Origin: Aphrocallistes beatrix
Lineage: Eukaryota > Porifera > Hexactinellida > Sceptrulophora > Aphrocallistidae
DNA length: 64,000 bases
Direction: 5' to 3'
NCBI GenBank assembly: GCA_963281255.1
Contig: OY725505.1
Location: forward strand, 372,001 to 436,000
Part shown: positions 1 through 41,400 of the stretch, one piece after another
How the letters are laid out: each line of letters opens with the position of its first letter
Numbering within the stretch: the stretch's first letter is position 1
Notes under the pieces: model-generated
Told to the model about the DNA's origin: nothing
The model's database searches: none
What the model saw: the letters and a program-made list of their open reading frames with translations, nothing else
Translations under genes and position numbers: made by a program

Positions 1-1
1 G

Positions 2-1535
2 AAAGGAAATCCGGACAGTTTACAGAATTTGAGGATTGGAAGCTATGGTCGTGTATGCAAAGTTTGTTCATTTTCGCCACGGACTAAAGGACATGTTGGT
101 GAGTTATATAGTATACTACAGTGGAAGTATTTTATCCATCGTTTTTGTCGCTGGCCTTTGTAAACATTGTTTTATTATTACACAGTAACTCTATTAGAAA
201 AAGTCGTGTTTTTGTCGCCTAGGCTATGAAATCAATTGACAAAACTAATTCGATTGTCATAGCTAGAAATACACATATTACAAGTATCATATTATGAGTA
301 TACTGGAAGAAAATTGTTCTAAACCGAGGAACGATTCTTAATAACTTTCACATTTTAGATTCGAGAGTGACTGAACCAACTAGACCCTTTGATCCTACCG
401 GACCACCAGCACCTTATGGACAGCCAGGATCTAGTGGAGATAAAGGTAAATACAAGTACTATATCAATACATTTTACAAGTCTTCTGTGATTGTAATAAT
501 GGTCTAGGAATTTTTAATTTTGTGAAAAAAATAAATGTTAACTTTAGCAGAATTTGTTGTACCTATCAAACTTTGCTGAATTGTGCTAGCTTACAATAGC
601 ATTGAATGTTGCATACAAATCAGTACATGAAAATTGAACAGACTCACGTGAAAAAAAATGTTACATATAACTGCCACATTTAATAACACTTTTGAATTCA
701 CGCATTATATTGAAATACAGTCGCAATTTCGAAGACCCTAGTTAATAGGATAATCAATAGATAGACGCCTTAAATACAAAAAATATAAACAAGATGCGTT
801 TTGGAGTAAAAAGAGTTAAAGGCTGGATTCGGTTAACCCTAATTTGCCTTAGGAATGTAAATTGAAAGTGAAAGTTAATTGAAAGTAAACTGAAAGTGAA
901 AATGAAAGTGGGAATTTTCTATTTATACCTTTGACCCCAAGGTCAGATTAGGGTTTAACCGGCTAACCGCCGTCAATCACGGTTAACGGTTAAGAAAATC
1001 TTGAATCGGTTAGCCGATCTGCTTTATTTTCTAAATATTAAGACTAATTTCATTGCTTTTCGATGGAGATTCATGAATATTACTTCTAAAATTTTGATAA
1101 TACAATATTATTTCTATTTTTCTAACCAAATAGTATATTTCGAGACCACTGAAAATTGTAAATTTTTTAATATCAGGTTAAATATTAGTCGACAAATCCA
1201 TATTTATACTAATTAATATTGACATCGGTTAACCGATTAACCACCCTGGAGGAAACCAAAATAACCGACCCCGAAAATATGTTAACCAACCCCAGCCCTG
1301 AAGAGTTAAATAAAAAGAATCATTTATAAATCACCCAAAGAATACGAATAATATGAAAATGCTAGAGTTAGCAAAGCTTCCATATTATATAAAATGTTTA
1401 ATTTGTGTAGGTGATAGAGGTAGGAGAAGTGTGTCTGGAGAGGAACCAGGAGCACCTGGTGAACGTGACTACGGAAACTGGTGGGGCTGTTTTGATCCAG
1501 TGCCAATCCCTTGTTGCGGGATATGTCAGTATTAA
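2..1535 (+). CDS. Collagen-like gene, 3' part (5' end outside window)
   Basis: Three exons fit one reading frame with phase-1 junctions: 2-98, 359-445 and 1411-1535. Each is bounded by GT/AG (gtgagt, gtaaat donors; ttttag, gtgtag acceptors). The first visible exon encodes the end of a collagen chain followed by NLRIGSYGRVCKVC, the same short segment that closes the collagen exon in the lectin genes at 4469 and 9615. The second adds a proline-rich linker with GPPAPYGQPGSSGDKG. The last carries a few Gly-X-Y triplets and ends in WWGCFDPVPIPCCGICQY and a stop. It is probably a secreted extracellular chain whose Cys cap forms disulfides. No lectin or Ig exon is visible in the 965-base second intron. 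The 819-1308 hAT-like insertion lies in that intron. The start is off the left edge, so the N-terminus is unknown. Confidence 0.7.
819..1300 (+). mobile_element. Non-autonomous hAT-like element, copy 1
   Basis: The element begins AAGGCTGGATTC and ends CCCCAGCCCTG or one base earlier, an imperfect terminal inverted repeat. It is flanked by the 8-bp direct repeat AAGAGTTA (811-818 and 1301-1308), the target duplication length of hAT transposases. A second copy in opposite orientation lies at 23675-24060. The interior is rich in GGTTAACCG and encodes no transposase. It carries a nested piggyBac-like MITE at 837-954. Confidence 0.8.
837..954 (+). mobile_element. piggyBac-like MITE nested in the hAT-like element
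   Basis: The element starts CCCTAATTTG and ends AGATTAGGGT, and is bracketed by TTAA at 833-836 and 955-958, the canonical piggyBac target. The host repeat copy at 23675-24060 has an uninterrupted GGTTAACCGG at this place, giving an empty site. The internal sequence is made of GAAAGTGAAAGT-like runs and matches the copy at 46938-47053. Confidence 0.85.
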
Positions 1536-2302: not shown

Positions 2303-3542
2303 TATGGGCCTAGTGGTATATGTGAAGGTCCACCAGGTCCACCAGGTATAAAGGGAGAGATGGGAGTAAAGGGACTTGACGGACAACCTGGTGTGGATGG
2401 AGGCAAAGGTGATCGTGGCCCGAATGGAATACCTGGCAATTATGGTCCACCAGGTATACCAGGAATAAGAGGGGATCCTGGTGTACCTGGAGAACCTGGT
2501 GCGAGAGGATTTCAGGGTCCACCTGGTGTAAAAGGAACAAATGGAATCCCGGGACCTAGCGGAATACCTGGAAATCCAGGAACTAAGGGTGAACCTGGTA
2601 ATTTAAATGATTTGAAGATTGGACCATCTAGAACTCTCTGCAAAGATTGTTCAAGGACGAAAGGTTATTACGGTGACTTATATTTAAATATATTAATTAG
2701 AAGCTTCCAGGTGCAGTTCAAGGCAAAAATATGCTTGCAGTTGTGGTACATAATTAATTCACATGATTAACTCATAATTACAAAGCAATTCTTTTACACA
2801 AAACACAATTAGTTAATGTTTACGGCTAAAATTTGCGTCATATGAGATTTTGAACCTAAATTCAGATGTGCATTTGCGTTAGATTTTTTGAGGCGTCTGT
2901 TCTCCTGATAGACACTAATAATTTGAAACGGTTGTTATCTTAAATGTCCGAAATATAAATTGTATGCTAGTTGTCTTTTTGAGTATATATATAAGGGAGA
3001 TCAAGGTAATACGACAAAGTTGATCGTAGTGCTAAGTCAAATTTGCAGAAAATGCAATAAATTTATTCGAAATTCGAAAGTTATATAATTTTGAGTTAAA
3101 ACTAGTTTATCGCTTATAAGGAAGAAAAATTACACAACAGAAGAACCTCGTTAATAGGAATTACAGGGTCACGGTCTAAATTTATTCGTATTATTTATTA
3201 ACCAGAGTGATTTATACATGTATGTTTTTCCACCTTAGGGGATAAAATAACTGTTCGTATGGAATTTCGATTATCTGTGTTTGTATTAACGAGGTTCTAC
3301 TGTATAAAAGCTTCATGTCTCTAGGAACCCAAATAAACGAGAGCATAATAAGATGTGAAATTAGAATGAATTGGGAAATGTATATTAATAATATTTGTCC
3401 AATCTGTCTAGGTGAGAGAAGCAGGAGGGGGGCTCCTGGAGCACCTGGAGCACCTGGAGCACCTGGTCTTACTCCTGGACCACCAACTGGTCCACCTGGA
3501 TGTTTTGAATCAATATCTTGTTGCAATGGATGCGTTTACTAA
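2303..3542 (+). CDS. Collagen-like gene lacking a visible signal-peptide exon
   Basis: The collagen exon runs from about 2303 (acceptor aatag; in-frame stop just upstream) to a donor near 2660-2672, and the terminal exon is 3412-3542 (acceptor ctgtctag). Exon 1 encodes about 33 Gly-X-Y triplets (G-P-P, G-I-P, G-E-P types) followed by [17 protein letters not shown], homologous to the NLKIGASGE-CRVC segment of the lectin genes. The terminal exon has [13 protein letters not shown] and ends [17 protein letters not shown] see no upstream exon with MKLLL-type signal and coiled coil. Either a distant 5' exon is missed or the gene is 5'-truncated; an ATG at 2360 would give a non-secreted product. The donor choice (2660 or 2672, gtgact) is uncertain. 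No lectin or Ig exon is present in the intron. Confidence 0.65.
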
Positions 3543-4468: not shown

Positions 4469-6272
4469 ATGATAAAATTACTGTTAATTTTAACAACTTG
4501 TGTGAATATCACATTTGCATTAAGTGATAATATTCCTCTTCAATCATGGGTTGAAGGATCGAAAACGGACTTAATTACTGAAATAATGGAAAAGGTTACA
4601 CACAAGCTGGAAACTGAATATGCAACAATAAAGAAATTAGAAGCCGAATACACAACAAAAATTAAATTTGAAAAACTAGAAGAAGAACTTGAAATGAAGG
4701 TGATAAGGGTGATATGGGAATAGAAGGACCTAGAGGGGAAAACGGAACCGATGGCATACCTGGTCCAATAGGACCCCATGGCATACCTGGTCTAATAGGA
4801 CCTATGGGCCCGAGTGGAAGTATTGGGATACCTGGAGAACCTGGTAGAAACGGAACACCTGGGGAACCTGGCATTAATGGTGCACAAGGTCCAACAGGAC
4901 CTATAGGCCTGACTGGTAGAATAGGAATACCTGGAATTCCTGGTTACGATGGAAGACCTGGAAGACCTGGACTATCTGGTTATGATGGAAGGCCTGGAAA
5001 AACAGGAGACCCTGGTAGTAATGGACCACCTGGTCCAATAGGACCTAAGGGATCGAGTGGTACTGTTGGAGCAAACGGAGAACGTGGTCCAATTGGACCT
5101 GTGGGTGCGATTGGTGATATAGGATTTCCTGGAATACCTGGTCCATCAGGACCTCAAGGATTTAGCGGTCCTGTTGGAGAACCTGGTCAAATTGGACTGC
5201 GTGGTGAGAGAGGAATGCCTGGAGTTCCTGGTATCAATGGAACACGTGGGGAACCTGGTCCGAGAGGAATACCTGGAGATGATGGAGATGATGGAGATGA
5301 TGGAGATGATGGATACCTCAATTCAGGATATTTGAGTTTAAGTAATTTGAAAATTGGAGCATCTGGTGAAATGTGCAGAGTTTGTTCAACGACTATCAGT
5401 GAGTTGTATTTAAATACATATATTAATTGGAAGTTATTTTCACGATGAGTGTAAAGTTTTAATCTTTTTTTGTAAAAGGGAGGAGCCAAGAACTAGCGGA
5501 GAGAGCGACGGAAGGGAGAACAAAAATAGCTGTAGATCGATATTTGAGTGTCTAAGATTCAAAATAATTTTATGGGGGGATAGGGCCTTCCAGGCACCCT
5601 TTACGAACAACCGCTCCCCCACTCACTTTTATAAACATGAGAAAACTTTTACGCAATAAATTAAGTGTCTTTTAAGGATCTGACAATAATTTGTGCTGGA
5701 AAATGGTAAATAGTGACTTGTAAAGCTAGTAATACTTTGTGCTCAAAATTATTTAATTAATTACTTGTATATGTGTTATACACTTGTACAAGCGCGCTTC
5801 GCTTGCTTGCGCTACGCGGCTGGCGGACACTTCGTGTCCGCCGGAGGCTCCCTTCGGTTGCCTGGAGGTGACATTGGTTAATTATAAGGGAGATATTATC
5901 TCTGAATATGTCCATCTTAGTTTTAAAATCGATATCACTCGAAAAATGACATAATTTCATCATTTTTTAATGATAGTTGCATCATATGTGAGGTATGTTA
6001 GTATACATATTCTATTAAAATTTCAGCCTTCTATCTTCTATAATGGCTGAGTTATGCCCGAATAACTGTGTTGCTTAACTTTTGAAAATGTGACAATAAC
6101 GTCATAATTCCATGATGAGTCGACATTTTGCTCTGAGCTCAGAACTTACTGGAGCCATAGCCAAAATACTCCAACATGCCAAAAATCAGCTTTCTGTGCC
6201 TGGCAGTTTCTTCAATCAATTCGTTACAGATATATCCTTACTATTAAAACTCGATTATTGTTTGTTTGTGTA

Positions 6273-6329
<57 letters not shown>

Positions 6330-8604
6330 GTAACGAATTGATTGAAGAAACTGCCAGGCCCAGAAAGCTGATTTTTGGCATGTGGGAGTATTTTGGCTAT
6401 GGCTCCAGTAAGTTCTGAGCTCAGAGCAAAATGTCGACTCATCATGGAATTATGACGTCATTGTCACATTTTTAAAAGTTAAGCAATACAGTTATTCGAG
6501 CATAACTCAGCCATTATAGGAGATAGAAGGCTGAAATTTTAATAGAATCTGTATACTAACACGTCTCACATATGGTGCAACTATCATCAAAAAATGATGA
6601 CTCATCACTTTGCTATGACGTCATCATTACTCATCAAAAATTTTAAAAATTGATAAATTTGGTGATTTTTTTCGTGCAATATCGATTATAACAGTAGGAC
6701 AGACGTATTTAAAGATGTTATTTCCCTTATAATTAATCAATGTGACCCCAGGCGCCCAAAGGGCGCCTCCGGCGGACACTTTGTGTCCGCCAGCCGCGCA
6801 GCGCAAGCAAGCGAAGCGCGCTTGTATATATATATGCACAAACAAACAATAATCGAGTTTTAATAGTGAGGATAATCTTTATCAAAATTTAAATTAACTA
6901 ACTAGTATAATATTAATTATAATATCATTACTATGTCATATAAAGAATTAACATACCAAATTACTAACCATTATTTCTAGATTTTTGTGCAGATCTTACT
7001 ATCTTGCAAATTTCATTTTAATTATAGTTGTTCCTAAAAGTGGATGCGATCTGATCACAGAGAGTGGGGTATGTGTCAGTTTTCTCACCAGCAGAGGATC
7101 AAATTGGGCAACAGCTCGTAGTGAATGTGCCAAATGGGGCGGTGACCTTGCTTCTATCACTAATAGTAATGAAGATAGATTGTTCGACTCAATAGCGAGT
7201 GTACGTCCAACAGCGTGTTGGATTGGGTTCAATGATATAGAAAGAGAAGGAGAATGGAGATGGGCTGATGGTACTGAGAATAGTTTCACAAATTGGGAAC
7301 CTGGTAATCCTAGTAGTGATAAGCAAGATTGCGGAACGAAGTACTGGCTAGGCCCTAAATGGGATGATGATACTTGTCATGAATTGAAAAGATGCTATTT
7401 CTGCAGTGCTAAAGGTAAATTTTTTAAATGCATTCTACCAATTACATACATGTTACCCGTTTCGTTTTGGCGGTTATCCCGCTTTTCTCACTCTTCTATT
7501 GAACACATTTTCACGAGTGTCCCGTTTTGAGGTGAAATTTCTTCATTATGTCCCGATCTTTTTGGGTACATGTATAATACTTTTCTATAAAGTAAACAAC
7601 TTCTCAAAATAGAATAGATTGAGCAACTCCAGGCGCCCTCAAGGCGACTCTGCGGACACCCAGTGTCTCGCAAGCCGCGCAGGGCAATCAAACGAAGCGT
7701 GCATGTAATGAATAATATGCCATTGTATCATAGAACTAAGGGGGTTGGAATTATTAATGTTCAATTGCCTTAGTTATTCCTTTTCAAATAAAAGAAGAGC
7801 AAACATTCATTACTGCGGTGAATGGAGAGATCTACCAAAATGCAACTCTCTATTGCATCACAGAAAACAAGAACTCTCCAAGGGTGACTTGGAGGTACGT
7901 AGATCCAGCTGGGAGTCAATCATTTCTCAGGAGTACAACTGATGTCAATACAGGAGTTAGTGCTCTAACTGTGACTACTGATAAACCAGGCTACTACTCG
8001 TGCCAGGTCACTCAACAAGGAGGAGTCAGTAAGAGATATGGCGTATGGTTGCATCCTTTGCTGTTAGCAGGTATATATCAATACGTACTTACTTGTAACT
8101 TCCATATGTTACTTGTAAATAGTTATTGATTTGAATCGACATCAAAACAAGGAACAGGGATGCCATAATTGACCTAAAAAAATTGCACGGATTTTTTGCC
8201 AACTGTTTACATGCTACTTTCTTTTATCCACCATTTTGCTTTAGTTATACGTGCTGTAGAAATATTCGAGTAATTTCAGAATCGGAATTTTCTTAACCAT
8301 ATCAGTTTTAAGGTGCCTGGGAATTTACTTGCTACTTTATTTTGACCGCCATCCACAATATTTATTTACTACCTTTTTCCCTCCGAAGAATAAAATGATA
8401 GTAAGTAGCAAGTAAATCCCTGATAAGGAGAGCAGATGGAATTATCTATGTTTAATCTGTGTAGATGAAAGCAGGGGGATATCTTCTGGAGTGCGTCGTG
8501 AACTACCTGGTCAAACTGGACCACCGGGACCACCGGGACCACCTGGATCACCTGGATACTGTTTTGAATCAATACCTTGTTGCCAAGGATGCGGTTACTA
8601 CTAA
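4469..8604 (+). CDS. Collagen - C-type lectin - Ig protein, copy A (frame broken in exon 1)
   Basis: Predicted exons: 4469-5398, 7028-7414, 7795-8070, 8465-8604; all junctions are phase 1 with GT/AG. Exon 1 starts with a hydrophobic signal peptide, then [14 protein letters not shown] and a Glu/Lys-rich coiled coil, then about 65 Gly-X-Y triplets and NLKIGASGEMCRVC. Exons 2 and 3 are a C-type lectin and an Ig domain. Exon 4 adds [13 protein letters not shown] and the cap CFESIPCCQGCGYY. The architecture resembles soluble collagenous lectins such as collectins, with an Ig domain added, so a secreted oligomeric recognition or matrix protein is inferred. The frame that starts at 4469 stops at 4721-4723. 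The collagen frame is shifted by -1 and has its own stop at 4690-4692. Compared with the 25026 gene, the end of the coil and the Cys-x-Cys are missing. It may be a pseudogene, an assembly error, or a product starting at ATG 4714 without a signal peptide. Confidence 0.75.
5785..6877. mobile_element. Inverted pair of TIR elements in intron 1 of gene A
   Basis: 6236-6877 is bounded by inverted repeats of about 35 bp (ACTATTAAAACTCGATTATT and its complement near 6840-6875). The adjoining 5785-6238 is an inverted copy of most of its interior, so the pair forms arms of several hundred bases. A (TA)n run occupies about 6269-6327. Each outer edge carries the GC-rich block AGCGCGCTTCGCTTGC with the hairpin GGCGGACAC/GTGTCCGCC. 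No coding potential is seen. The equivalent intron of gene B (10251-10827) lacks it, so it arrived after the gene duplication. Confidence 0.75.
7028..7414 (+). CDS. C-type lectin domain exon of gene A
   Basis: A symmetric phase 1-1 exon of 387 bases encodes one complete C-type lectin-like domain. Landmarks in order: CDLITESGVCVSF, WATARSECAKWGGDLASI, WIGFNDIEREGEWRWADG, NWEPGNPSSDKQDCG and WDDDTCHELKRCYFC. The EPN/QPD position reads N-P-S and the usual WND reads W-D-D, so calcium-dependent sugar binding is possible but sugar preference cannot be assigned. The WIG core and paired cysteines are intact. Confidence 0.9.
7446..7708. repeat. GTCCCG-type repeat and GC-hairpin remnant in intron 2 of gene A
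   Basis: 7446-7600 contains the repeated GTGTCCCGTTTT and GTCCCGAT blocks of the dispersed family also seen at 11250-11395, 31995-32135 and 48517-48679. 7629-7708 is a degraded copy of the GGCGGACAC hairpin block. Confidence 0.55.
7795..8070 (+). CDS. Immunoglobulin domain exon of gene A
   Basis: A symmetric phase 1-1 exon of 276 bases. It shows the canonical Ig pattern: ATLYC, VTWRY, ALTVTTDKPGYYSCQV, then a G-strand-like SKRYGVWL. It fits a single I- or V-like domain. The acceptor (AAAG/AA) was chosen because it restores the frame from the lectin exon and matches copy B. Confidence 0.85.
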
Positions 8605-9614
8605 GATCTTCCGTACATTCCAGATTCCAGAGATTTAAGAATAATTGTAATGTGATCCTGTATAATATAGTTGTATTATACATATGTGTATAATGCTGTA
8701 TTATGTCGTATTATATAAGTGTGTGTTAATTAATGAATTAAAGTCTTATTATGCAATGAGATTTTGTTTCGTTTAACAAGTATGAGTTAGCAATGAATAT
8801 ATATTAGGGATGGGACGGATGTGAGGTTTTGCAATCCGCGGATGCAAATGTGTATGCAAGCCAGGGGTGGCATCCTGAGTATTTGCCTCGAGTTTGATCC
8901 TGCGGCCCCGGATTTCACCTCATTAAAAAAACAATCATAACAATAATAGTTGGTCCGGAAGGTGTACCTGGACACCGATGTTCTGTATCAGCTATTTTCC
9001 ATCTGGATTCTACGGAATATTATATTCTAATTCTAGATAATCTGATACGTAGTGCTATGCAGTATTTAAATTAATCTCCATCCGACAATATTAACCCTAT
9101 TACTCTGTTCTAAGATTCAATCACCGCCACCAGGTATACTCATCACCTCCATACTATATAGTGGTTAAGACTAGACATACTAGGTGTTACTGTCACTTTA
9201 TGATTACTTTTAAATTTCAAAACACTTTTAGAAGTTGGCGACTAAACTATAATAGACATCACCTGCAAACTAAAAAGTCATAATAATATTATGTATTGAA
9301 GTGCTACAGTGGCCCTTAGTCATATTCTAAGATTTACAAAGATCGAGTTAAGTACATTATATAGTCATTAAAGAAGCACTTTCAAAAGTTAGTCATATTG
9401 CTTTTAATAGCATTTAATAGCTTTCAATAGTTAGTCATATTCTACGAAGATTTGCCCTTAAAGTTAAATGTATTATAAAATTCATAAGAAATACGTTTTG
9501 AAATGATTACAACCCACACTCATTGAATATTGAATATGACATCAACAGAATCAGAGGTTTCTGTGTATTTAAGCATCTGATATAGCTCAAATTATAAGAA
9601 CAATATTCGGAATA
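8605..9614 (+). promoter_or_regulatory. Intergenic region with duplicated promoter-proximal block for gene B
   Basis: About 9235-9560 is a block also found upstream of the collagen at 20263 and near 17740-18010, 19040-19330 and 19855-20160. It holds three copies of TTAGTCATATT (near 9311, 9391 and 9436). A TATA-like TATTTAAG at 9566-9573 lies about 45 bases before the ATG at 9615. The same TATTTAAG occurs at 12707-12714 and 20214-20221 ahead of the next collagen genes. Promoter function is inferred. Confidence 0.5.
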
Positions 9615-12097
9615 ATGAAATTATTGCTAGTTTTAGTACTCTGTTTGAGTATTATACAAGTATTCGCAAATCCTGGACGATCGGGTGGGATTGCAGAAAA
9701 GGAGAAAGAGAAACGTTTAATCTACGAAGTATCGGAAAATGTTACGAATAAGATGGAGTCAAATTCGAAAAGCTTGAAAAAGAACTCCAAACGCTCAAAT
9801 CAGAAATACAAAATAGTAGAAAACCATGCACTTGTGTTGGACAACCAGGACATAAGGGTGATAGAGGGTCTACGGGAGCAAAAGGGACACATGGACAGCA
9901 TGGTCCAAAGGGACCTATAGGCCTGACTGGTAGAATAGGAGCACCTGGAGCACCAGGGTATGATGGTAGACCCGGAAAGTCTGGAAGGCCTGGACTATCT
10001 GGTTCTGACGGAAGACCTGGAAGAGCAGGGGAACCTGGTACTAAAGGAAGACCTGGTCCAATAGGACCTAAAGGACCACGTGGTAGGATAGGAGTGCCTG
10101 GTATCAATGGAACACGTGGGGAACCTGGACCGAGAGGAATACCTGGAGATGATGGAGAAGATGGGTTCCTCAGTCCAGGATATTTGAGTGTGAGTAATTT
10201 GAAAATTGGAGCATCTGGTGAAATATGCAGAGTTTGTTCAACGACTATCAGTGAGTTGTATTTAAATACATATATTAATTGGAAGTTATTTGCCAGCATA
10301 AGTGTAAAATTTCTTTTGTAAAAGGAGGAACCAAGAGCTAGCAGAGCGAGCGACGGAAGTGAGCCAAAATAGCTGTAGATCAATATTTTAGGGTCTAAGA
10401 TTCAAAATAATTTTATTGGGGGGGGGCAGGCCCCTCTATGCACCCTTTACGATCGATTGCTCCTCCACTCACTTTTACAAACACGAGAAAACTTTTACGC
10501 AATAAATTAAGCGTCTTTTAAGAATCTGAAAATAATTTGTGCTAGAAAATGGTAATGTTGATTTGCACAGCTCGTAACACTTTGGACTCAAATCTTTGTT
10601 AATAAAGTATATGCAATGTGTTATCTAATCCCTATAAAAAATTAAATAAAATCTAGTGTAGTATTAATTATTATATCATTAGTCAACACAATTTCGTTTG
10701 GTAGAAATGTACAGTATATTAATTATCATACCTGAGATAGCATACCATATAAGGAATTAACATACCAAATTACTTTTCTAGATTTTTAGTTCATTTCCTA
10801 TTAAATACAATTTTATTTTAATTATAGTTGTTCCTAAAAGTGGATGCAATCTGATCACAGAGAGTGGGGTATGTGTCAGTTTTCTCACCAGCAGAGGATC
10901 AAATTGGGCAACAGCTCGTAGTGAATGTGCCAAATGGGGCGGTGACCTCGCTTCGATCACTAATAGTAATGAAGATAGATTGTTCGACTCAATAGCGAGT
11001 GTACGTCCAACAGAGTGTTGGATTGGGTTCAATGATATCGAAAGAGAAGGAGAATGGAGATGGGCTGATGGTACTGAGAGTAGTTTCACAAATTGGGAAC
11101 GTGGTAATCCTAATAACTATAAAGGTCATCAAAATTGTGGAACGAAGTATTGGCTAGGCCCTGAATGGGATGATGATTTTTGTCATGAATTGAAAAGATG
11201 CTACTTCTGCAGTGCTAAAGGTAAATTTTTAAATGCAGTGTATCAATTACATCCAAACCAACCGTCGGGCTTTCCCACTCTTCCATTGAGCAAATTTTCA
11301 CGAGTGTTTGAAGTGAAATTTCTGTCCCGCTTTTTGTGAGCCAATGTATAATACTTTTCTATTGGTCCCGCCATGTCCCGCTTTTATCATGGCTCAAGTT
11401 GTAGGCAACTATTTTAATGTCTTATATCATAGAACTAAAGATGAGAATTATTAATGTCTAATTCTCTTAGTTATACCTTTTCAAATAAAACAAGAAACAT
11501 CATTCATTACTGCGGTGAATGGAAAGATCTACCAAAATGCAACTCTCTATTGCATCACAGAAAACAAGAACTCTCCAAGGGTGACTTGGAGGTACGTAGA
11601 TCCAGCTGGGAGTCAATCAGTTCTCAGAAGTACAACTGATGCCACTACAGGAGTTAGTGCTCTAACTGTGACTACTGATAAACCAGGCTACTACTCGTGC
11701 CAGGTCACTCAACAAGGAGGAGTCAGTAAGAGATATGGCGTTTCGTTGCAAGATCCTTTGCTGTTAACAGGTATTATATCAATAATTAATTTTCATATGT
11801 TAAATAGTTATTGCTTTGAATCGAGCTCAAAATAAGGAGCAGGGATTCCATAATTTACTTACTACCTTTTTTCCTCCCAAAAACAAAAAGGTAGTAAGTA
11901 GCAAGTAAATCCCTGAAAAGGAGAGCAGATGGAATTATCTATGTTTAATCTGTGTAGATGGAAGCAGGGGGATATCTTCTGGAATGCGTCGTGAACTACC
12001 TGGTCAAACTGGATCACTTGGACCACCGGGACCACCTGGATCACCTGGATACTGTTTTGAATCAATACCTTGCTGCCAAGGATGCGGTTACTACTAA
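9615..12097 (+). CDS. Collagen - C-type lectin - Ig protein, copy B (frame broken in exon 1)
   Basis: Exons: 9615-10250, 10828-11220, 11495-11770, 11958-12097, phase 1 throughout, parallel to copy A. Exon 1 has the signal peptide MKLLLVLVLCLSIIQVFA, a short charged segment, a coil, CTCVGQPGHKGD, about 37 Gly-X-Y triplets (shorter than in A) and NLKIGASGEICRVC. The lectin exon reads WIGFNDIEREGEW, GNPNN and WDDDFC. The Ig exon has ATLYC and DKPGYYSCQV. The last exon ends CFESIPCCQGCGYY. The frame from the ATG reaches a stop at 9918-9920, while the coil and collagen lie in the -1 frame. The break sits near 9750-9765, at a different point from copy A and apparently a separate deletion. The lectin and Ig exons are nearly identical to copy A, pointing to recent duplication or gene conversion. 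Confidence 0.75.
10828..11220 (+). CDS. C-type lectin domain exon of gene B
   Basis: A symmetric phase 1-1 exon of 393 bases, two codons longer than in gene A in the loop before the third Cys (GNPNNYKGHQNCG). The calcium-site positions read N-P-N and W-D-D. WIG core and cysteines are conserved. Confidence 0.9.
11495..11770 (+). CDS. Immunoglobulin domain exon of gene B
   Basis: A 276-base phase 1-1 exon, nearly identical to the gene A exon, with the Ig Cys, Trp and DxGxYxC landmarks intact (ATLYC, VTWRY, DKPGYYSCQV). Confidence 0.85.
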
Positions 12098-12763: not shown

Positions 12764-15700
12764 ATGCATTTGTTAATAATTATAACATTTTTCTTCAATA
12801 TTATACTTGCAACGAGTGATAACATTCCTCTCCAGTCATGGGCTACAATGTCGAAAATGGACCTAATCACAGAAATAACGGAAGAAGTCAAGAATAATTT
12901 AGAAGCTGAGTATGCAGAAAAATTCAAATTAGAACTCAAAACGATTAGAAAGGAATTGCAAGAAGAATTTCAAGTACTCAAATCTGATTTATTTCAAAAT
13001 ATGAATTTAATCAGGAATCGCAGACTGCAACCGTGTACGTGCACTGGCAATTCAGGTGTTATTAAAGGGGAGAAAGGGGACACAGGGTTGAAAGGGAAAA
13101 ACGGAACAGATGGAAAACCTGGTCCAATAGGACCAAGTGGTACTATCGGATCACCTGGGGAACCTGGAATTAACGGAACACCTGGAGCACCTGGGGATAG
13201 CGGAAGTCCTGGAGGACCTGGTCCAAGGGGACCTATAGGTCTGAATGGTAGCATTGGAATACCTGGAGTACCTGGCATGAATGGAACACATGGAAAACAT
13301 GGAAAGCGTGGAGGAAGAGGTTTGATAGGAAATGATGGAGGAGATGGTCCTCCAGGTATTCAAGGTGAAAAGGGAGAAAAAGGATTGCCAGGAAATGAGG
13401 GATCTGGTGCGCCTCCTGCACTACCAGGTGCACGGGGACAACCAGGTGAACCGGGACGACCTGGTCGACCTGGACAATCAGGATCTGATGGCCTACCTGG
13501 ACTTCCTGGTATAGCTGGAGCTCCAGGACCAAAAGGATCTCCTGGTGTACAGGGGGGAGCTGGGGCTATTGGTCCGCCGGGAACACAGGGACCACCTGGG
13601 AATATTGGTCCATCTGGACCAGAGGGACCACCTGGGAATATTGGTCCATCTGGACCAGAGGGACCACCTGGGTACAATGGTTCACCGGGACCAGAGGGAC
13701 CACCTGGGTACAATGGTTCACCGGGACCAGAGGGACCACCTGGGTACAATGGTTCACCGGGACCACGGGGACCACCTGGGTACAATGGTGCATCAGGAGC
13801 TCCCGGACCCCCCGGATCGAGTGGATCATCTAACAGATATGCTGGAAAAGGTTAGTACCAGATATGCCATACTTACATAAATAGCATTTTGACATCAAAA
13901 CACATTTGGACTGCAACAATGTCATTGTCACCAGTTTTCTAGTAAATTTCAGTTTTTATGCACAACTCATTATAACAGACAAAAGGTTAAAATTTGAATC
14001 ACAGGTATAGAATAACATTCTTTCGTTGTTATTCCATATTGATAGAAAATGCTTGCTTATAATGGATTATGACGTCATCATCACCTTGCGGACAAGAATT
14101 GTTCCCCAACGGTGCAATGATAGTGTCTGAGCCGCGCGTAACGTTAATAAACTCGTCACAGAACATTTGGTTTCACTAAATTATGTATTTATTTTAATTG
14201 AAACATTATGGTACGAACTTTGCAACGAAAATAATAATTATCCTTCAACTACTAGTAGATAATAGCTAGTATTGAATTGCATAATCCTTACTATTAAAAC
14301 TCGATTATTGTTTGTGTATGTGTGTATGTGTGTACGTATATATATATATATCTGTAACGAATTGATTGAAGAAACTGTCATGTACAGAAAGCTGATTTTT
14401 GGCTATGGCTCCAGTAAGTTCTGAGCTCAGACGAAAATGTCGACTCATCATGGAATTATGACGTCATTGTTACATTTTTAAAAGTTAAGCAATACAGTTA
14501 TTCGAGCATAACTCAGCCATTATAGGAGATAGAAGGCTGAAATTTTAATAGAATATGTATACTAACATATCTCACATATGATGCAACTATCATCAAAAAA
14601 TGATGACTCATCACTTTGTTATGACGTCATCATTACTCATCAAAATTTTAAAATTGACAAATTTGGTGATTTTTCGTAAGATATAGATGATAACAGTAAG
14701 ACAGACGTATTTAGAGATGTTATCTCACATATAATTAATCAATGGTTATCACAGGCGCTAGCAGGGCGCCTCCGGCGGACACAAAGTGTCCGCCAGCCGC
14801 GCAGCGCAAGCAAGCGAAGCGCGCTTGTATTTCCTTAAATCTAATTGGATAGGAAATTTTAAAATAGAGCATGTTTATCATTGATAGATCCCATTAAACC
14901 CAATACATTCGCTATAATCTATTAACTCTATGCATTAATTAGGTTCATTCCCTGGAAATTCTTACAGTGGTTCAGTTGTAATTATATTAAATGTTTAGTC
15001 TACTAAGAATTATAAAATTACACAATTTGCGGTAGCAAATTTTCGGATCAAAGAAATTTTTCATAGTAGAGGGGTAGCTTATAAAATTTCCCATACATAT
15101 ATATAAATAGGAAATTTTAGAATGTTTGGATGAGTAGGAAGAATGTTATCTCATGTTCTTAGGTGGTTATGGATATGGAAATTACTAAAATTATAATAAA
15201 TGTATAAATCTAATTTTATAGGAAATTTTAGAGCATAGCATATCCATCATTGATATATCACATTAATCCCAATACATTCACTCTGATTTATTATCTCTAT
15301 ATTAGGTGGTTCAGGAAATTATAACAGTGGTCCATCTGGATCAAGAGGTATGTATCTTGTAAAGTTGTAATGATATTAAATGCTCAATCTATTTCGTTGT
15401 TTGTACATACTTGCAAACTTATAAGTATCATTTTGGACATAGTTATTTAGTGGGACATTGTATATTTGTATTAGGCCCTATACACTGAAAAGCGGGACAA
15501 TTCAACTTTTTGGAACGTTTTCACGGGACATTACTTTTAAAATATGTCTGAAATAGCGGGACGTCTTGCCAAAAACGGGACAGTTAGCAAGTATGTTTGT
15601 GCATAATTAATTGGAAAGGCAATGGCCATAGAGAGCTGAAAACTTGTACACTTGCATAAGATTTCTTATAAATCTAATTTGTATAAGAAATTTTAAAATA

Positions 15701-20262: not shown

Positions 20263-21258
20263 ATGAAACCATTGCTAATTTTAGTACTCTGTTTGAGTAT
20301 GATACTAGTATTCGCAAATTCTCTAGCACCGCCTGGAGAAAGGGACAAAGAGAAGCTGGGAGCTGAATATGCAACAAAAATTCGATTAGAAAAGCTTGAA
20401 AAAGAACTCAAACTGCTCAAATCCGAAATACAAAACAATAAAAAAGCATGTACTTGTACTGGACAACCAGGTCCAAAAGGACCTATAGGTCCGACTGGTG
20501 GATTAGGAGCACCTGGAGTACCTGGTTGCGATGGAAGACCTGGAGTACCTGGTTGCGATGGAAGACCTGGTATTGACGGAAGGCCTGGTCCAATAGGACC
20601 TATAGGACCGAGTGGTAAGATAGGAATACCAGGACTCAATGGAACACCTGGAGACCCTGGGATTGAAGGAAGATTTGGTTTAAATGGCACTAATGGAACA
20701 CCTGGAGAAAAAGGTTCATCAGGTGTTAAAGGTGATAAAGGTGACACAGGGATAAATGGACCAAGAGGGGAAAAAGGGACAAAAGGACAACTTGGTCCAA
20801 GAGGAGATGATGGAAGTGACGGGTCTCCTGGTAAACCTGGACATCCAGGAAAGAATGGCATAAATGGAGAGCTAGGACAGAAAGGCTCTCCAGGAGCAAA
20901 AGGAGAAACGGGTCCAAGTGGTACAGCTGGACAGATGGGTCTTCCTGGACCATCTGGGATTGCTGGTCAGAATGGTCCTCCTGGGCCATCTGGGCCAGCT
21001 GGAACAACTGGTCCGAAAGGCTCTCCTGGAGCAACAGGTGCAAGTGGAACAGATGGTCAGAAGGGTCCTCCTGGACCAGCTGGACCACCTGGAGCAACTG
21101 GTCAGAAAGGATCTCCTGGCTCGCAAGGAAAACGTGGAGCAACTGGTTGGAGAGGCCGTCAAGGTACTCCAGGAAAAACTGGTGCGACTGGTAAGAGAGG
21201 CCTACCTGGCCCTCCTGGTACATGTCGTCGGAAATGTCCTATATACAATATTACATAG
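20263..21258 (+). CDS. Single-exon short-chain collagen
   Basis: An uninterrupted 331-aa ORF. A signal peptide (about residues 1-18, LLILVLCLSMILVFA) is followed by a short charged coil (about 26-60), CTCTG at 63-67, and then about 84 Gly-X-Y triplets up to residue ~320. It closes with CRRKCPIYNIT, a different Cys cap from the lectin genes. The triplets include many G-X-K/G-X-R and GERGEK-like charged units. It is probably secreted and trimerises through the coil. TATTTAAG at 20214-20221 and the TTAGTCATATT block (19855-20160) precede it. It is the cleanest collagen gene in the cluster. A 3'-exon cassette at about 21955-22950 follows the stop but does not need to be part of it. Confidence 0.85.
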   Translation: MKPLLILVLCLSMILVFANSLAPPGERDKEKLGAEYATKIRLEKLEKELKLLKSEIQNNKKACTCTGQPGPKGPIGPTGGLGAPGVPGCDGRPGVPGCDGRPGIDGRPGPIGPIGPSGKIGIPGLNGTPGDPGIEGRFGLNGTNGTPGEKGSSGVKGDKGDTGINGPRGEKGTKGQLGPRGDDGSDGSPGKPGHPGKNGINGELGQKGSPGAKGETGPSGTAGQMGLPGPSGIAGQNGPPGPSGPAGTTGPKGSPGATGASGTDGQKGPPGPAGPPGATGQKGSPGSQGKRGATGWRGRQGTPGKTGATGKRGLPGPPGTCRRKCPIYNIT

Positions 21259-24060: not shown

Positions 24061-24089
24061 GCTGCAAACTAAAAAGTCTAAGAATAATA

Positions 24090-24600
24090 CTAAAACATGT
24101 ACATACTTGTATTGGACAACCATGATATAAGGGTGATAAGGGTAACAGAGGGTCTACGGGAGCAAAAGGCACTCATGGACAACATGGTCCAAAGGACCTA
24201 TAAGCTTGACTGGTATAATAGGAGCACCAGGGTATGATGGTAGACCAGGAAGGTCTGGAAGGCCTGGACTATCTGGTTATGACGGAAGACCAAGAAGAGC
24301 AGGGGAACCTGGTATTGAAGGAAGACCCGGTCCAATAGGACCTATAGGTCCGAGTGGCAAGATAGGAATACCTGGAGTCAATGGGACACCTGGAGAAAAA
24401 GGTTCATCAGGTGCTAAAGGTGATAAAGGTGACATAGGGATAAATGGACCAAGAGGAGAAAAGGGAACAAAAGGACAACTTGGCCCAAGAGGAGATTATG
24501 GAAGTGACGGGTTCTCTGGGGTTATGAAACTATATCGTCTTCACAAACAAAGATTTGCAGATTTTAAAAGTCAATTATTCCATATTCGTCGATGAGATCT
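24090..24600 (+). pseudogene. 5'-truncated collagen fragment
   Basis: It begins inside the Cys-x-Cys region (AAACATGTACATACTTGTAT), has no signal peptide, and shifts frame near 24195. An open Gly-X-Y frame follows from 24206 to about 24520 and then runs into non-collagen sequence before the stop at 24595. It is a mosaic of the 9615-like start (GSTGAKGTHGQHG) and a 20263-like later part (GTPGEKGSSGAKGDKGD). Confidence 0.8.
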
Positions 24601-25025: not shown

Positions 25026-26742
25026 ATGAAGTTATTGTTAATTTTAACACTCTGTCTAAATATTATACAGGTGTCTGCATTAAGTGAGAATATTCCTCTT
25101 CAATCATGGGTTGAAGAATCGAGAAAAGACTTAATTAACGAAATAATGGACAAGGTTACGAACAAGCTGGAAGCTGAGTATGCAACAAAAATCAAATTAG
25201 AAAAGCTTGAGAAAGAACTCGAAATGCTCAAATCTGAACTTTCACAAAGGAATGATGAAATAATCAGGATTTGTAGACAGGAAGCATGTACTTGCATTGG
25301 AAAACCAGGATATAAAGGTGATACGGGTGACACAGGGCTAAAAGGGCCTAGAGGAGAAAATGGGACCAGTGGACAACCTGATCCAATAGGACCGAGTGGC
25401 AGCATGGGAATACCTGGAACAGCTGGAGAACCTGGACTCAACGGAACACCTGGAATACCAGGCTTCAACGGTGCACAAGGTCCAACAGGACCAATTGGCC
25501 TGACTGGTAGAATAGGAATACCTGGGCTTCCTGGTTACGATGGAAGACCTGGAAGACCTGGACTATCTGGTTATGATGGAAGGCCTGGAAGAACAGGAGA
25601 ACCTGGTAGCAATGGACCACCTGGTCCAATAGGACCTAAGGGATTGAGTGGTACTGTTGGAGCAAAGGGAGAACCTGGTCCAATTGGACCAATGGGTCCG
25701 AGCGGTGAGATAGGATTACCTGGAATACCTGGTATCAATGGGACATCTGGAGAACCTGGTATTGATGGTTCAATAGGAACTATAGGACTGATTGGAACAC
25801 CTGGTGAACCGGGTCAAGCAGGAGCTGCTGGTGTAGATGGAGAACCTGGTTACCCTGGAAGGCAAGGAGATAGAGGTATACCTGGTGCACCCGGTACAAC
25901 TGGTCAAGTTGGTCTCCCTGGTATAGCTGGACGAAATGGTTCTCCAGGGGAGGATGGAAGGGATGGGGGTCCAGGTGAACAGGGTCACCCTGGAAGTAAA
26001 GGAGATCGTAGTATACAAGGTGCACCAGGTGCAAGTGGTCGAGTTGGTCCCGTTGGTGAACCTGGACCCTCTGGTAGAAATGGACAGATTGGACAGCGGG
26101 GTTACCCTGGAAGAAAGGGAGATCGTGGGATCCCTGGTCCAAAAGGATGTGAGTAATACCATTTTAGAAATATAATTATTGACAATTTTAAAATTCAGAT
26201 TTTAAACTATTTTCTCCTTATTTTATTCATGTTTAGTAATATTTACTTGCCGCCCTTAGGTGGCCTAATATGGAGAATTGTTCGCAATCACAATATGTAT
26301 AAACAAATTAATTTCGTTTCTGCTATTGCAATACACTTAAATTCAAAAGATTACAGCTATTTATTATGTTTCATAGATTGCTCTCGGTGTCTTCCATTAT
26401 CTGGATCATCTGGACCACCAGGACCACCCGGACCACCTGGACCCCCAGGACCTCCTGGATGGAGAGGTAAGCTTGAGAAGCATGCACACTCGACTCCGCT
26501 TAATAGGGTCACTGTTTATTTAGGTCAACCGATGAATCGGGACACTTTTAGTAGGACCGGAATAGCTCTCACACATAGAAGCTAATACAATATATTTTCG
26601 GTCAATAGGGATCTCCGCTTAATTGGGGCAAAATGTCCTCTGACCGATGTGGCCCTATTAAGCGGAGTCGACTGTATCTAAAATTTATAATAAAATGTGC
26701 AATATATGTTAAATCTTTTTCAACCCAGGAGGGCTACCTTGA
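25026..26742 (+). CDS. Short-chain collagen, coiled-coil type, copy E
   Basis: Exon 1 runs 25026-26148. The ATG at 25026 is preferred over an upstream in-frame ATG at 24957 because it begins the family signal peptide ([18 protein letters not shown]) and aligns with the 28268 gene. [10 protein letters not shown] follows, then a strong Glu/Lys/Leu heptad coil (about residues 32-82), CTCIG at 88-92 and about 94 Gly-X-Y triplets. Exon 2, 26377-26466, encodes [13 protein letters not shown] and [18 protein letters not shown] tiny last exon, 26729-26742 (GGLP-stop), is inferred. One triplet reads QPD-PIG where its relatives have Gly (GAT for GGT at 25380-25382), an interruption likely to kink the helix. 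Secreted and trimeric by inference from coil plus collagen. Confidence 0.8.
26488..26674. mobile_element. CGCTTAAT inverted-repeat MITE, copy
   Basis: Ends pair as CTCGACTCCGCTTAATAGGG and CCCTATTAAGCGGAGTCGA. The interior contains AGGACCGGAATAGCTC and ACACATAGAAGCTAATAC. Seven related copies occur in the window. Confidence 0.75.
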
Positions 26743-28267: not shown

Positions 28268-29625
28268 ATGAAGTTATTGTCAAGTTTAACACTCTGTCTA
28301 AATATTATACAAGTGTTTGCATTAAGTGAGAATATTCCTCTTCAATCATGGGGTGAAGAATCGAAAAAAGACTTAATTACCGAAATAATGGACAAGGTTA
28401 CGAACAAGCTGGAAGCTGAGTATGCAACAAAAATCAAATTAGAAAAACTTGAGAAAGAACTCGAAATGCTCAAATCTGAACTATCACAAAAGAATAATGA
28501 AATAATCAGGATTCGTAGACAGCAACCATGTAATTGCATTGGAAAGCCAGGATATAAAGGTGATAAGGGTAACAAAGGGTTAGAAGGACCTAGAGGAAGG
28601 AACGGAACCAATGGAATACGTGGTCCAATGGGACTTAATGGTCTGATTGGTAGAATAGGAATACCTGGTCTACCTGGTCATAATGGAATATATGGAAGTC
28701 CAGGACTACCTGGTATTGATGGAAGAGATGGAAGAGATGGAAGAGATGGAAGAGATGGAAGAGCAGGAGAACCTGGTTCCATTGGACCACCTGGTCAAAT
28801 AGGTGAGATAGGATTGCCTGGGGCACCTGGAGAAAGGGGTATTGGTGGTCCAATAGGACCGATTGGAGCCCCTGGTATCCCGGGAGTTGATGGAAGGGAT
28901 GGGGATACTGGTGAACCAGGTCAAGAAGGAGCTACTGGTATAGGTGGAGAACCTGGTCGACCTGGAAGGGAAGGGTATAGTGGTCCACTTGGTCCACCTG
29001 GTCTACCTGGTAGTAACGGTAACCCTGGAAGGCCTGGAAGAACAGAACCTGGTATCAATGGATCACCTGGTCCAATTGGACCAATGGGTCCGAGCGGTGA
29101 GATAGGATTATCTGGAATACCTGGTATCAATGGGACACCTGGAGAACCTGGTATTGATGGTTCGGTAGGACCTATAGGACCGAATGGACCACAAGGTTTC
29201 CCTGGAAGGCAAGGAGATAGCGGTCTACCTGGTGCACATGGACAAAATGGATATAGAGGTTCAGACGGTCCTCCTGGTATACCTGGTCTAGACGGCTCTC
29301 CTGGTCCTCCTGGTCGAGCAGGTGGTGAGTAATATAATTTAGATTTATAATTATGCAGCAATCTTGAAATTCAGATTTTAAACCTTTTTCTTCTATTTTA
29401 ATAATGTTAAGTAATATTTACTTGCCGTCCTTAGGTTGCCTAATATGGAGATTTTTTCACAATCGCAATAAGTATAAACAAATTAAAGTGATGCACTTAA
29501 ATTCAAAAGATTACAGCTATTCATTATGTTTCATAGATTGCTCTCGGTGTGATTCCGGACCACCTGGAAATCCTGGACCACCTCAACCACCTGGATATCC
29601 TGGACCATATCCTGGATCATCTTGA
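28268..29625 (+). CDS. Short-chain collagen, coiled-coil type, copy F
   Basis: Exons 28268-29324 and 29537-29625 (phase 1; gtgagt donor, tttcatag acceptor). The signal peptide [18 protein letters not shown] leads into [10 protein letters not shown], a heptad coil (about 32-82), CNCIG near 88-92 and about 86 Gly-X-Y triplets. The second exon encodes [11 protein letters not shown] and a Pro/Tyr-rich tail [11 protein letters not shown] ending in a stop. Copy E has no stop at that point and continues to a donor. A run of [16 protein letters not shown] is notable. Near 29045 a GGA codon is missing relative to copy E (GRPGRT-EPG), breaking triplet register once. N-terminal coding sequence is almost identical to copy E, consistent with recent tandem duplication. 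The product is inferred to be a secreted trimeric matrix chain. Confidence 0.85.
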
Positions 29626-38400: not shown

Positions 38401-41400
38401 CTATTTTTTTCTGGAACACAAGTTCTAATGTTCCCATACTTTCTAACACTATTAGGACCCCACTTTGTCTATCTGACTTTTGTGATACTGAATATTTTGA
38501 GTGGAGTTTATGTTCTAGTATTCATCCCAGAAACGAAAAACAAATGTTTAGAAGAGATTGAAATCTTGTTTCAAGGAAAAACATTGTTTATACCATTCAA
38601 AATTGCCAATCCTTTTGCTAGGGAATACAGTTACAATGTCAATGCATCTAGTTTTTAGATTAACTTTACAAATTCTATTTAGGCATAACTTACTCCGCAT
38701 GGGAGTTTCTTCATTTCCTGTGTAATAAACATGTTTCTTATTAATTGTCGTAGAGATATATCATGATCAGCTGTAAAAAAGTTTCAACATTGTTGATCTT
38801 TTACTATTCATAATTGGATGATATGTTGTGCACAGGACCTATAGAAGCATATGGAATTTCTTTATGTGCTACTGCCATTTTGGGCCCCCAAAGTAATAAT
38901 CATTCATATAAAGTTTAGTTAAATAAAAGCTAGGGCATTAGGATCTTTCGATCCATGATCGAAAGATCCGGATCGCGACCCTTTTTTTGAGGATCGAGAT
39001 CCTTTTTAAAAGTAGGATCGGGATCGGATCGAAACTTTTACTGAATTCGATCCGATCCTTTTTCTTTTCAATCCCCAAGTTGGAGGTGAAAGTGTTGAAA
39101 TTTATGTTGATTAAATATATTTTACGTTGATTAAATATAGGGTGGCCCAGGGAAATTGAGACAAATTTCAATGTTTTATTTACCACACAAATATATGAAC
39201 TATTTCGGATTTGCTAATATTTATTAGTGTTATATATCTTTATGTTCAATTTGATTCAAAATGGCCACATTTAGAAATTTCACACCTCCGTAATCTAACC
39301 TTGAACTGGTCGATGCAGCGATTGACTTTGGACAAATCTAATTTTTTCCAAGAAAGCTGAATTTTCCTTTTCAGATCTTGTAAACTCGTTGGTGGTATGC
39401 GATAGACTTCCTGTTCCATCATACCCCAAATCCCGTAGTCAAGGGGATTGAGGTCAGGAGAATTTGGGGGCCAAGCTTCCTTCGTCCAAAACCCAACATT
39501 CTCAGATTTCAGGTATTCTGATATTTTGGTTGCAGTATGGCATGGAGCGGAGTCCTGTTGGAAATGGAGATTGTGTTTGCGACAAGTAGGAACAACTATG
39601 GGTGCTAAAATGTCACTTAGGTAGCGATCTGCATTCAGATTGTCACCTTGTTTGAAGAATACAAGATCGGTTTTCACATTATGTGCGACTCCTGCCCAAA
39701 CCATCAGTTTCCTACTGAATTTATTCCTTTCAACGATAGTATTCTTATTGAGAGGCTTCTTCGTGCCTTCTTTAATTAAACCCGATCGTTTTGGCGGTTT
39801 AGGGGTTGATCCATTATGAAATTCTTTTAATCACAAAACAGAACTCGTCTCTGCGAGTTACCCTCCAAGCTTCGACGAAGAGCTCTTGATCTTTTCTCTC
39901 TCTTGACTTTTTGGGGGCTTGTAAGTGCTTGTTTCTTTTCCTTCTTTCTTGCTTTCAGCTTCATGTCCCTTCTTACAATTCTCTGAGCTGTGGTTTTAGG
40001 AATTTTGATCTCTCTGGCTATTTTTCTCAATGATTGAGCTGGTTTGCGGTGGAGGCGTGCTGCAATTTTCTTTCTAGCCACACGACTGGCCTCGGGAATC
40101 TTACCACCAGAACCCAATTTTCTGGAGCTATCGCCACCATTTCGGAGCCTTTGTACATGCCGATAAACAGTAGCTCTTGAAATTTGGAGATATTTCACAT
40201 GTTTCCAGATTTCAGTTGCACTTTGTCCATGATTGAAATGTGACTCAATGACTCTTCTCTTTTCTAATTCTCTCATCATCACGGTAGGAAATCAGAATTC
40301 AAGTGTAAAATAAGGTATTTGGTATGGTTTCTGCAATTAAAGTATAATTGAAAGTTAGTTATGAGCTAAGGTCATGTAATAATAGAATATACATTTGTCT
40401 CAATTTCCCTGGGCCACCCTGTATATGTGTTTTATGGTTTGAATACTAATTTAAGCACTATGTACGTCCCAGCCTGCCGCAGACGGACGGACATTGCACA
40501 CCGTCCATGCCATAAGGCATCTCCTTCCAGGAGCTGTACTAAAAATGATAGTCTTCTGACTATTATTGAAAGGATCTTTTTGGGGATCGTGATCGGATCG
40601 AAGATCCTTTTATAAAATTAGGATCGTGATCGGATCGAAGATCCTTTTATAAGTTAGGATCGGGATCTGGATCCTTTTTTTGAGGATCAACTAATGCCCT
40701 AATAAAGGCTTATTAACCCGCGCTTGGCGAGGTGTTTTGTAGCGTCATTTCCTGTTTAAGCCATTTTGGGCGGGGAAACCATACAAGTTTGGGGTCTGAC
40801 TATAAATAGAAAAAAATCACTTAGCCAACCGCAGGTTAAGAGAATAAATATACATAAGCACCTGCTAATAGATATGACGCAAATGCATCTCTAAACTAGT
40901 CAATGGAATAAAATTCTTATTCTGCTCTAAGAAAATTCGAAATATTTCTTCCCCAAGTCCAGAGAGCAGTACTTGGTCAATTTTAAAAGTTTTTGAGACA
41001 CCCTGCATACTTCAATAAGTTAAAGTTGTTATATAACTGACGAACAGGCAAATCAGGAATGGATAGATGGAAGTTAATTAATGGAAAGTTAACCAAATGA
41101 GTACATATTAATTACCAAAACATTGTAATACTACCATTAATTCTACAGAACAATTCTCTACAAGTAGATTAGAGAATCTTAAAAATATAAGTAACAAACC
41201 GATCAAGCCAGTCTTGTATACTTGTGAACCAAAGTTTACATTGCCTAGTGCAATGGGATGGAAGGCCTGAATTCCCGGGTCCTTCCATCTTCATTTTTCT
41301 TCAATAAAGAGAGTTAAAATTTTATATAGTATTCGAATACATTCACATCAAGATCTTATTTCTATCGTAATAATAGAATCGTTTTTCTTTGTTCAATTGA

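Follow-up and report, generated by a model that had tools for sequence, protein, structure and literature searches.

The window analysed here, 64,000 nucleotides of contig C19 (C19:372001-436000) in the 100.5-Mb, 28-contig genome of the glass sponge Aphrocallistes beatrix, carries two tandem copies of a gene in which a C-type lectin domain (CTLD) exon and an immunoglobulin (Ig) exon stand between two collagen segments. Copy 1 spans 4469-8604 and copy 2 spans 9615-12097 (coordinates are window positions unless a contig is given). In both copies the exon order is a signal/coil frame, Gly-X-Y collagen with a linker (NLKIG...CxxC), CTLD, Ig, and a short Cys-capped Gly-X-Y tail. In the assembled sequence, translation from the start codon would not give the full chain in either copy. 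The history that we consider probable is that a receptor-type CTLD-Ig module was shuffled into a collagen gene, and that the chimera was duplicated in tandem and recently decayed.

Exon architecture of the two copies

The features of the two copies are as follows.

4469-4723 (+): copy 1, signal peptide and coil frame; 84 codons, then a stop; frame differs from that of the collagen
4693-5398 (+): copy 1, Gly-X-Y collagen and linker (NLKIG...CxxC); open frame, phase-1 donor at 5399
7028-7414 (+): copy 1, C-type lectin exon; phase 1-1, Pfam Lectin_C 66.4 bits
7774-8070 (+): copy 1, Ig exon; phase 1-1, from Pfam scan, splice sites and frame
8465-8604 (+): copy 1, tail exon; short Gly-X-Y, C-x5-CC-x-GC cap, stop
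9615-9920 (+): copy 2, signal and coil frame; 101 codons, then a stop; frame differs from that of the collagen
9752-10250 (+): copy 2, coil end, Cys-x-Cys, collagen and linker; open frame
10828-11220 (+): copy 2, C-type lectin exon; Pfam Lectin_C 63.9 bits
11471-11770 (+): copy 2, Ig exon; from Pfam scan, splice sites and frame
11958-12097 (+): copy 2, tail exon; from homology to the copy 1 tail, splice sites and frame

The 17 splice sites that were examined all show GT or AG in a good context, and exon lengths place every junction from linker to tail in phase 1 in both copies. When the genomic sequence is spliced in silico, the stalk collagen and the CTLD fall in one open frame in each copy; from collagen to tail, the spliced frame is open for 510 codons in copy 1 and 444 codons in copy 2, stop included. 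The original prediction had placed the lectin and Ig domains on separate exons followed by a collagen tail, and the phase-1 joins and open spliced frames bear this out for both copies. The same joins speak to the idea that a gene of its own, made up of the CTLD and Ig exons, is nested in a collagen intron. The available part of the genome paper on the glass sponge A. vastus gives 12.4% nested genes for that species (PMC10282587), which lends the idea some plausibility; however, in both copies the lectin exon opens at a phase-1 acceptor and its open frame lacks a methionine ahead of the domain, and the phase-1 donor of the Ig exon joins the tail exon in frame, so that we regard a nested gene as very improbable.

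Genome searches scored the best 150 of 241 and the best 150 of 231 candidates for the CTLD, the best 150 of 261 for collagen, and the best 150 of 151 for Ig. Among these best-scored matches, no collagen-CTLD-Ig-tail order was found besides the two copies; when the scored CTLD and collagen matches were compared by eye, no CTLD match outside the locus lay within 10 kb of a collagen match.

The domain assignments are of unequal strength. The CTLD was predicted to be complete, and the domain itself is well supported in both copies (PF00059, 66.4 and 63.9 bits; cut-off, 22.6), with a sugar/calcium motif that is non-canonical. Collagen (PF01391) scores 122.1 bits in copy 1 and 40.2 bits, also above the cut-off, in copy 2 (C19:381938-382102). 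Taken alone, the Ig exons fall under the Pfam cut-off (Ig_3, 24.4 and 23.9 bits versus 30), as do two of three Ig exons scanned from contig C15 (the third matches Ig_2 at 29.8 bits versus 27). The predicted Ig domain is nevertheless upheld at the level of the family: in an alignment of 12 rows that includes both window rows, 10 of 12 match Ig_2 and 10 of 12 match Ig_3 (E ≤ 0.01), and the 12-row profile matched Ig proteins in the PDB (best E, 1.6e-5). As for the predicted second Gly-X-Y tail with a Cys cap, the tail exons of the two copies are homologous to each other and both carry Gly-X-Y, but the copy 1 tail, the only one scanned, misses the Pfam collagen cut-off (18.2 versus 27.2 bits). The Pfam scan of the exons of copies 1 and 2 gave no match to a fibrinogen domain.

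The canonical collectin calcium-sugar motif is EPN or QPD plus WND; copies 1 and 2 have NPS/NPN, QDC/QNC, and WDD at these positions, which makes canonical calcium-dependent sugar binding by their CTLDs doubtful. Among 27 other CTLDs examined in the genome, 11 have [E/Q]P[N/D] with WND, as does only one of the eight closest C15 rows; since the altered motif is thus largely common to the nearest relatives, it is in itself no sign of decay. The best PDB sequence matches of the CTLD are LY75, the IgY receptor, and mannose-receptor-like proteins, with SP-A ranking lower. Fold prediction from the two window rows only was uninformative, with a predicted local distance difference test score (pLDDT) of 69 and no PDB match at E ≤ 0.001 for the Ig exons, and a pLDDT of 36 for the CTLD.

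Intron 1 of copy 1 contains a repeat element (5787-6827, no strand assigned) with inverted arms at 5957-6235 and 6322-6600 (279 nt, 95% complementary). No match to it was seen in the compared stretch of copy 2; related sequence occurs in loci on C15, C14, and C4.

Relatives of the lectin, Ig, and collagen exons

At least 150 CTLD exon matches (the best 150 of 231 candidates) and at least 140 Ig exon matches (the best 150 of 151) were found in the genome, clustered on a few contigs and many of them in adjacent pairs, on C15, C6, C10, C16, C12, and C1. Relatives of the window CTLD and Ig exons on C15 are 61 to 69% identical among the top matches listed and often adjoin each other; in a CTLD tree of 29 rows, 27 of them from elsewhere in the genome, the window pair groups with eight C15 rows (support, 99/96). 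In those C15 copies that were inspected, the exons have phase-1 borders. Besides the window, we inspected the stretch upstream of it (L040) and further stretches of the genome (L041 to L043). In L042, on C15, the open frames comprise two successive CTLD-Ig pairs, then two frames that have no accepted Pfam match, an Ig-like frame, and a final frame whose end is a hydrophobic segment that, by eye and in this one C15 stretch, looks membrane-spanning. The window copies have no membrane-spanning end and terminate in the Gly-X-Y Cys tail. They share homologous CTLD and Ig exons and phase-1 borders with this family, but whereas C15 stretches show repeated CTLD-Ig pairs, each window copy has a single one. 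Homology to the C15 and C10 pairs places the lectin and Ig exons of the window in a large family of CTLD-Ig exons that appears receptor-like.

This putative donor family, with more than 100 CTLD and more than 100 Ig exon matches, may be the larger finding, as a candidate repertoire of recognition receptors. The main texts of two glass sponge genome papers (PMC10280926 and PMC10282587) contain no word starting with "lectin". Regions dense in CTLD and Ig exons include C15 3.87-3.99 Mb. Upstream of the CTLD-Ig exons of L042, positions 3-416 give a weak 7tm_2 match (17.0 bits; cut-off, 20.6), a possible adhesion G-protein-coupled receptor neighbour. On C4, CTLD matches with identical scores lie about 19 to 21 kb apart (2178507-2192126 and 2199462-2211299), suggesting a recent segmental duplication or a duplication in the assembly.

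On the collagen side, the relatives are next door. A single frame spans signal, coil, Cys-x-Cys, and collagen in six other genes of the cluster, of which four lie in the window and two begin in L040. The neighbouring features in the window are as follows.

1-98 (+): gene -1, end of exon 1 (linker); its signal-coil-Cys-x-Cys-collagen start lies in L040
359-445 (+): gene -1, small Gly-X-Y exon (phase 1-1), where copies 1 and 2 have CTLD-Ig
1411-1535 (+): gene -1, tail exon with related Cys cap
2303-2672 (+): gene 0 (upstream neighbour), collagen and homologous linker; no signal peptide in this frame
3412-3542 (+): gene 0, tail exon; in frame with the linker exon
12764-13852 (+): neighbour, signal-coil-Cys-x-Cys-collagen in one frame
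20263-21255 (+): neighbour, signal-coil-Cys-x-Cys-collagen in one frame
25026-26153 (+): neighbour, signal-coil-Cys-x-Cys-collagen in one frame
28268-29329 (+): neighbour, signal-coil-Cys-x-Cys-collagen in one frame

Genes -1 and 0 have linker and tail exons in common with copies 1 and 2 and similar tail acceptors, without CTLD and Ig. Gene -1 extends from L040 to window position 1535 with no interruption of its frame between start and stop; it shares the linker, and its tail is related, with the small Gly-X-Y exon separating the two. In gene 0 no CTLD or Ig match lies between linker and tail, and the linker joins the tail directly. In the genome, the signal/coil query found seven matches from six genes, every one in this cluster, and the tail exon query found two matches; neither query picked up the more diverged exons of genes -1 and 0. 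A further collagen copy at 24078-24592 has an in-frame stop and a frame change and is apparently decayed.

Broken start frames and the history of the copies

The original prediction listed signal peptide, coil, and Gly-X-Y in succession; that they form a single reading frame is not confirmed, as the frame is broken in both copies. From its ATG, the signal/coil frame runs to a premature stop inside the start of the collagen stretch and never enters the collagen frame, which is another one in each copy. Compared with the neighbour at 25026, copy 2 is missing 19 bp of coil, and the gaps are placed differently against the neighbour at 20263; in copy 1 the coil is rearranged and the Cys-x-Cys segment is missing. 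The breaks in exon 1 are multi-base changes, different in each copy, in sequence that is coding and uninterrupted in the paralogues.

Both copies could still be working secreted collectin-like lectins if the breaks were an assembly or haplotype artefact, or if a short intron, an alternative first exon, or frameshifting circumvented them; we consider this unlikely. Exons 2 to 4 are open and in frame in both copies, and frame-restoring GT-AG pairs do exist in exon 1 (6 in copy 1 and 21 in copy 2, in a search that kept at least 18 signal-frame codons, an intron of at least 28 bases, and an acceptor near the collagen start). However, the 27 candidate acceptors have at most 6/13 pyrimidines upstream, versus 8 to 10/13 for nine inferred acceptors of the locus, and we judged a short intron that restores exon 1 to be unconvincing on this ground. 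The multi-base nature of the breaks, in sequence that paralogues keep uninterrupted, also argues against working lectins, as does the copy 2 collagen frame, which has no methionine up to the donor.

Between the copies, exons 2 to 4 differ at 36 of 821 aligned sites (4.4%), with no stop and no frame-breaking indel (all three indels are multiples of three). For the introns, the comparison excluded the repeat element together with part of the adjoining intron 1 sequence; the parts compared show 104 differences over 899 sites (11.6%) and 46 gap events, 35 of them not multiples of three. The difference in mismatches is significant (Fisher P, 3e-8), and in these alignments the contrast between exons and introns speaks for coding constraint during much of the period that followed the duplication. 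The part of the collagen exon compared differs more (13.1%, with 16 gap events in the DNA alignment, 11 of them not multiples of three), in part because Gly-X-Y repeats align poorly. A simulation gave a tiny neutral probability for the open frames, but we did not rely on it, because intron gap counts depend on the alignment and gene conversion is possible.

That both copies are long-dead pseudogenes, functionless since the duplication, is in our view quite improbable. Such a reading would fit the two breaks in exon 1, the lack of a signal in the gene 0 frame, the broken copy at 24078-24592, and the pattern of substitution between the copies, which is near even over codon positions (16, 14, and 17 of 287) with a ratio of nonsynonymous to synonymous rates (dN/dS) not significantly below neutral. 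It does not fit exons 2 to 4, which have stayed open over 821 bases and are better conserved than the compared introns.

We thus favour recent decay following coding use as the likeliest state, with different frame-breaking coil changes in each copy; that is, copies 1 and 2 may have recently decayed rather than be working secreted lectins. The starting point would have been a short secreted collagen gene made of signal, coil, Cys-x-Cys, Gly-X-Y, a linker exon, and a Cys-capped tail exon. A two-exon CTLD-Ig module of receptor type would then have entered the phase-1 intron between linker and tail by exon shuffling, and the chimera would have been duplicated in tandem. While intact, its product would have formed a disulfide-linked collagen trimer, as suggested by the coil, Cys-x-Cys, and Gly-X-Y segments, bearing three CTLD-Ig heads between two collagen segments: a soluble, multivalent version of the receptor head that might have acted like a collectin or like the cnidarian ficolin-like proteins (CniFL).

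Several points weigh against this history. The dN/dS between copies is 0.48 to 0.51, which neutral simulations do not significantly exceed (P, 0.09 and 0.15; the codon alignment has 40 differences in 274 codons, versus 36 differences in the DNA alignment), and the even spread over codon positions likewise gives no sign of constraint. The exon-intron contrast on which the case for constraint depends could also come from gene conversion, and the intron gap counts vary with alignment settings. Separate breaks of the frame in the same exon of both copies could mean that a splice went unrecognised or that the assembly is at fault. The direction from receptor to collagen gene is drawn from family sizes and neighbours in this one genome, and the gene structure is read from genomic sequence.

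Comparison with known lectins and other observations

Collectins (MBL, SP-A, and SP-D) are known from vertebrates and tunicates. Like them, the window copies combine collagen and a CTLD in one chain, as read from the genome, and their product would probably be oligomeric. They differ in that the lectin is followed by an Ig domain and a second Gly-X-Y tail, the coil comes before the collagen, the calcium motif is non-canonical, and the start frame is not continuous with the stalk. The predicted likeness to collectins is therefore fair as an analogy of collagen plus CTLD, but a family of working lectins is not supported: two copies were found, both broken at the N terminus, and their lectin and Ig exons are part of the large receptor-like family. 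A role as oligomeric recognition or matrix lectins is possible.

Snail CREPs reportedly have an Ig-CTLD make-up. The crayfish protein PcLec3 has Ig and CTLD in tandem (PMC4944128); both resemble the window genes in this respect, and the available parts of the sources do not mention collagen (PMC4944128 and PMC5433772). The C-type lectin AvL of the glass sponge Aphrocallistes vastus is implicated in cell aggregation, and its cDNAs encode polypeptides of about 22 kDa with a hydrophobic N terminus; compared by description only, it differs from the window genes in that the accessible portion of its report mentions neither collagen nor Ig (PMC4557014). According to the part of the A. vastus genome paper available, that species has four collagens, in two tandem pairs, that rise in the growing osculum (PMC10282587), so that a structural role is also possible.

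Along with collectins and the Ig-CTLD lectins, CniFL are among the nearest known kinds; in the available text on these proteins, they combine collagen, Ig, and fibrinogen. They share with the window genes collagen, Ig, and a lectin-like head in one chain of a non-bilaterian animal, but have fibrinogen in place of the CTLD and mostly three Ig domains and a transmembrane domain (PMC5094078). In the open-licence literature searched, we recognised no description of collagen, CTLD, and Ig in one chain. As originally suggested, the exact chain may be undescribed, but a similar collagen-Ig-lectin-like design is already known in CniFL.

Tentatively, and with less than even confidence, we propose that a collectin-like humoral lectin arose within a glass sponge by the joining of a receptor CTLD-Ig head to a collagen stalk, convergent with vertebrate collectins and CniFL, and that the product, a multivalent recognition or matrix protein, is made now or was made recently. 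If the chimera was translated, the collectin design arose independently outside the vertebrate line by exon shuffling, in a genome that still contains sequences related to the donor exons as well as to the collagen genes that received them.

Elsewhere in the window, transposase-like pieces lie at 39249-40291 (-), where a DDE_3 match (31.7 bits, above the cut-off) stands beside helix-turn-helix matches. Two open frames of 196 and 193 codons (55803-56390 and 58909-59487), about 2.5 kb apart, are alike by eye; the first, the only one of the pair scanned, has no Pfam match. On contig C28, mitochondrial cox1 shows a code usage that points to a glass sponge, though it may also fit other phyla: it has 14 in-frame TGA codons and 16 AGA codons, several AGA at usual serine sites; ATA apparently encodes Ile, and AAA apparently encodes Lys.

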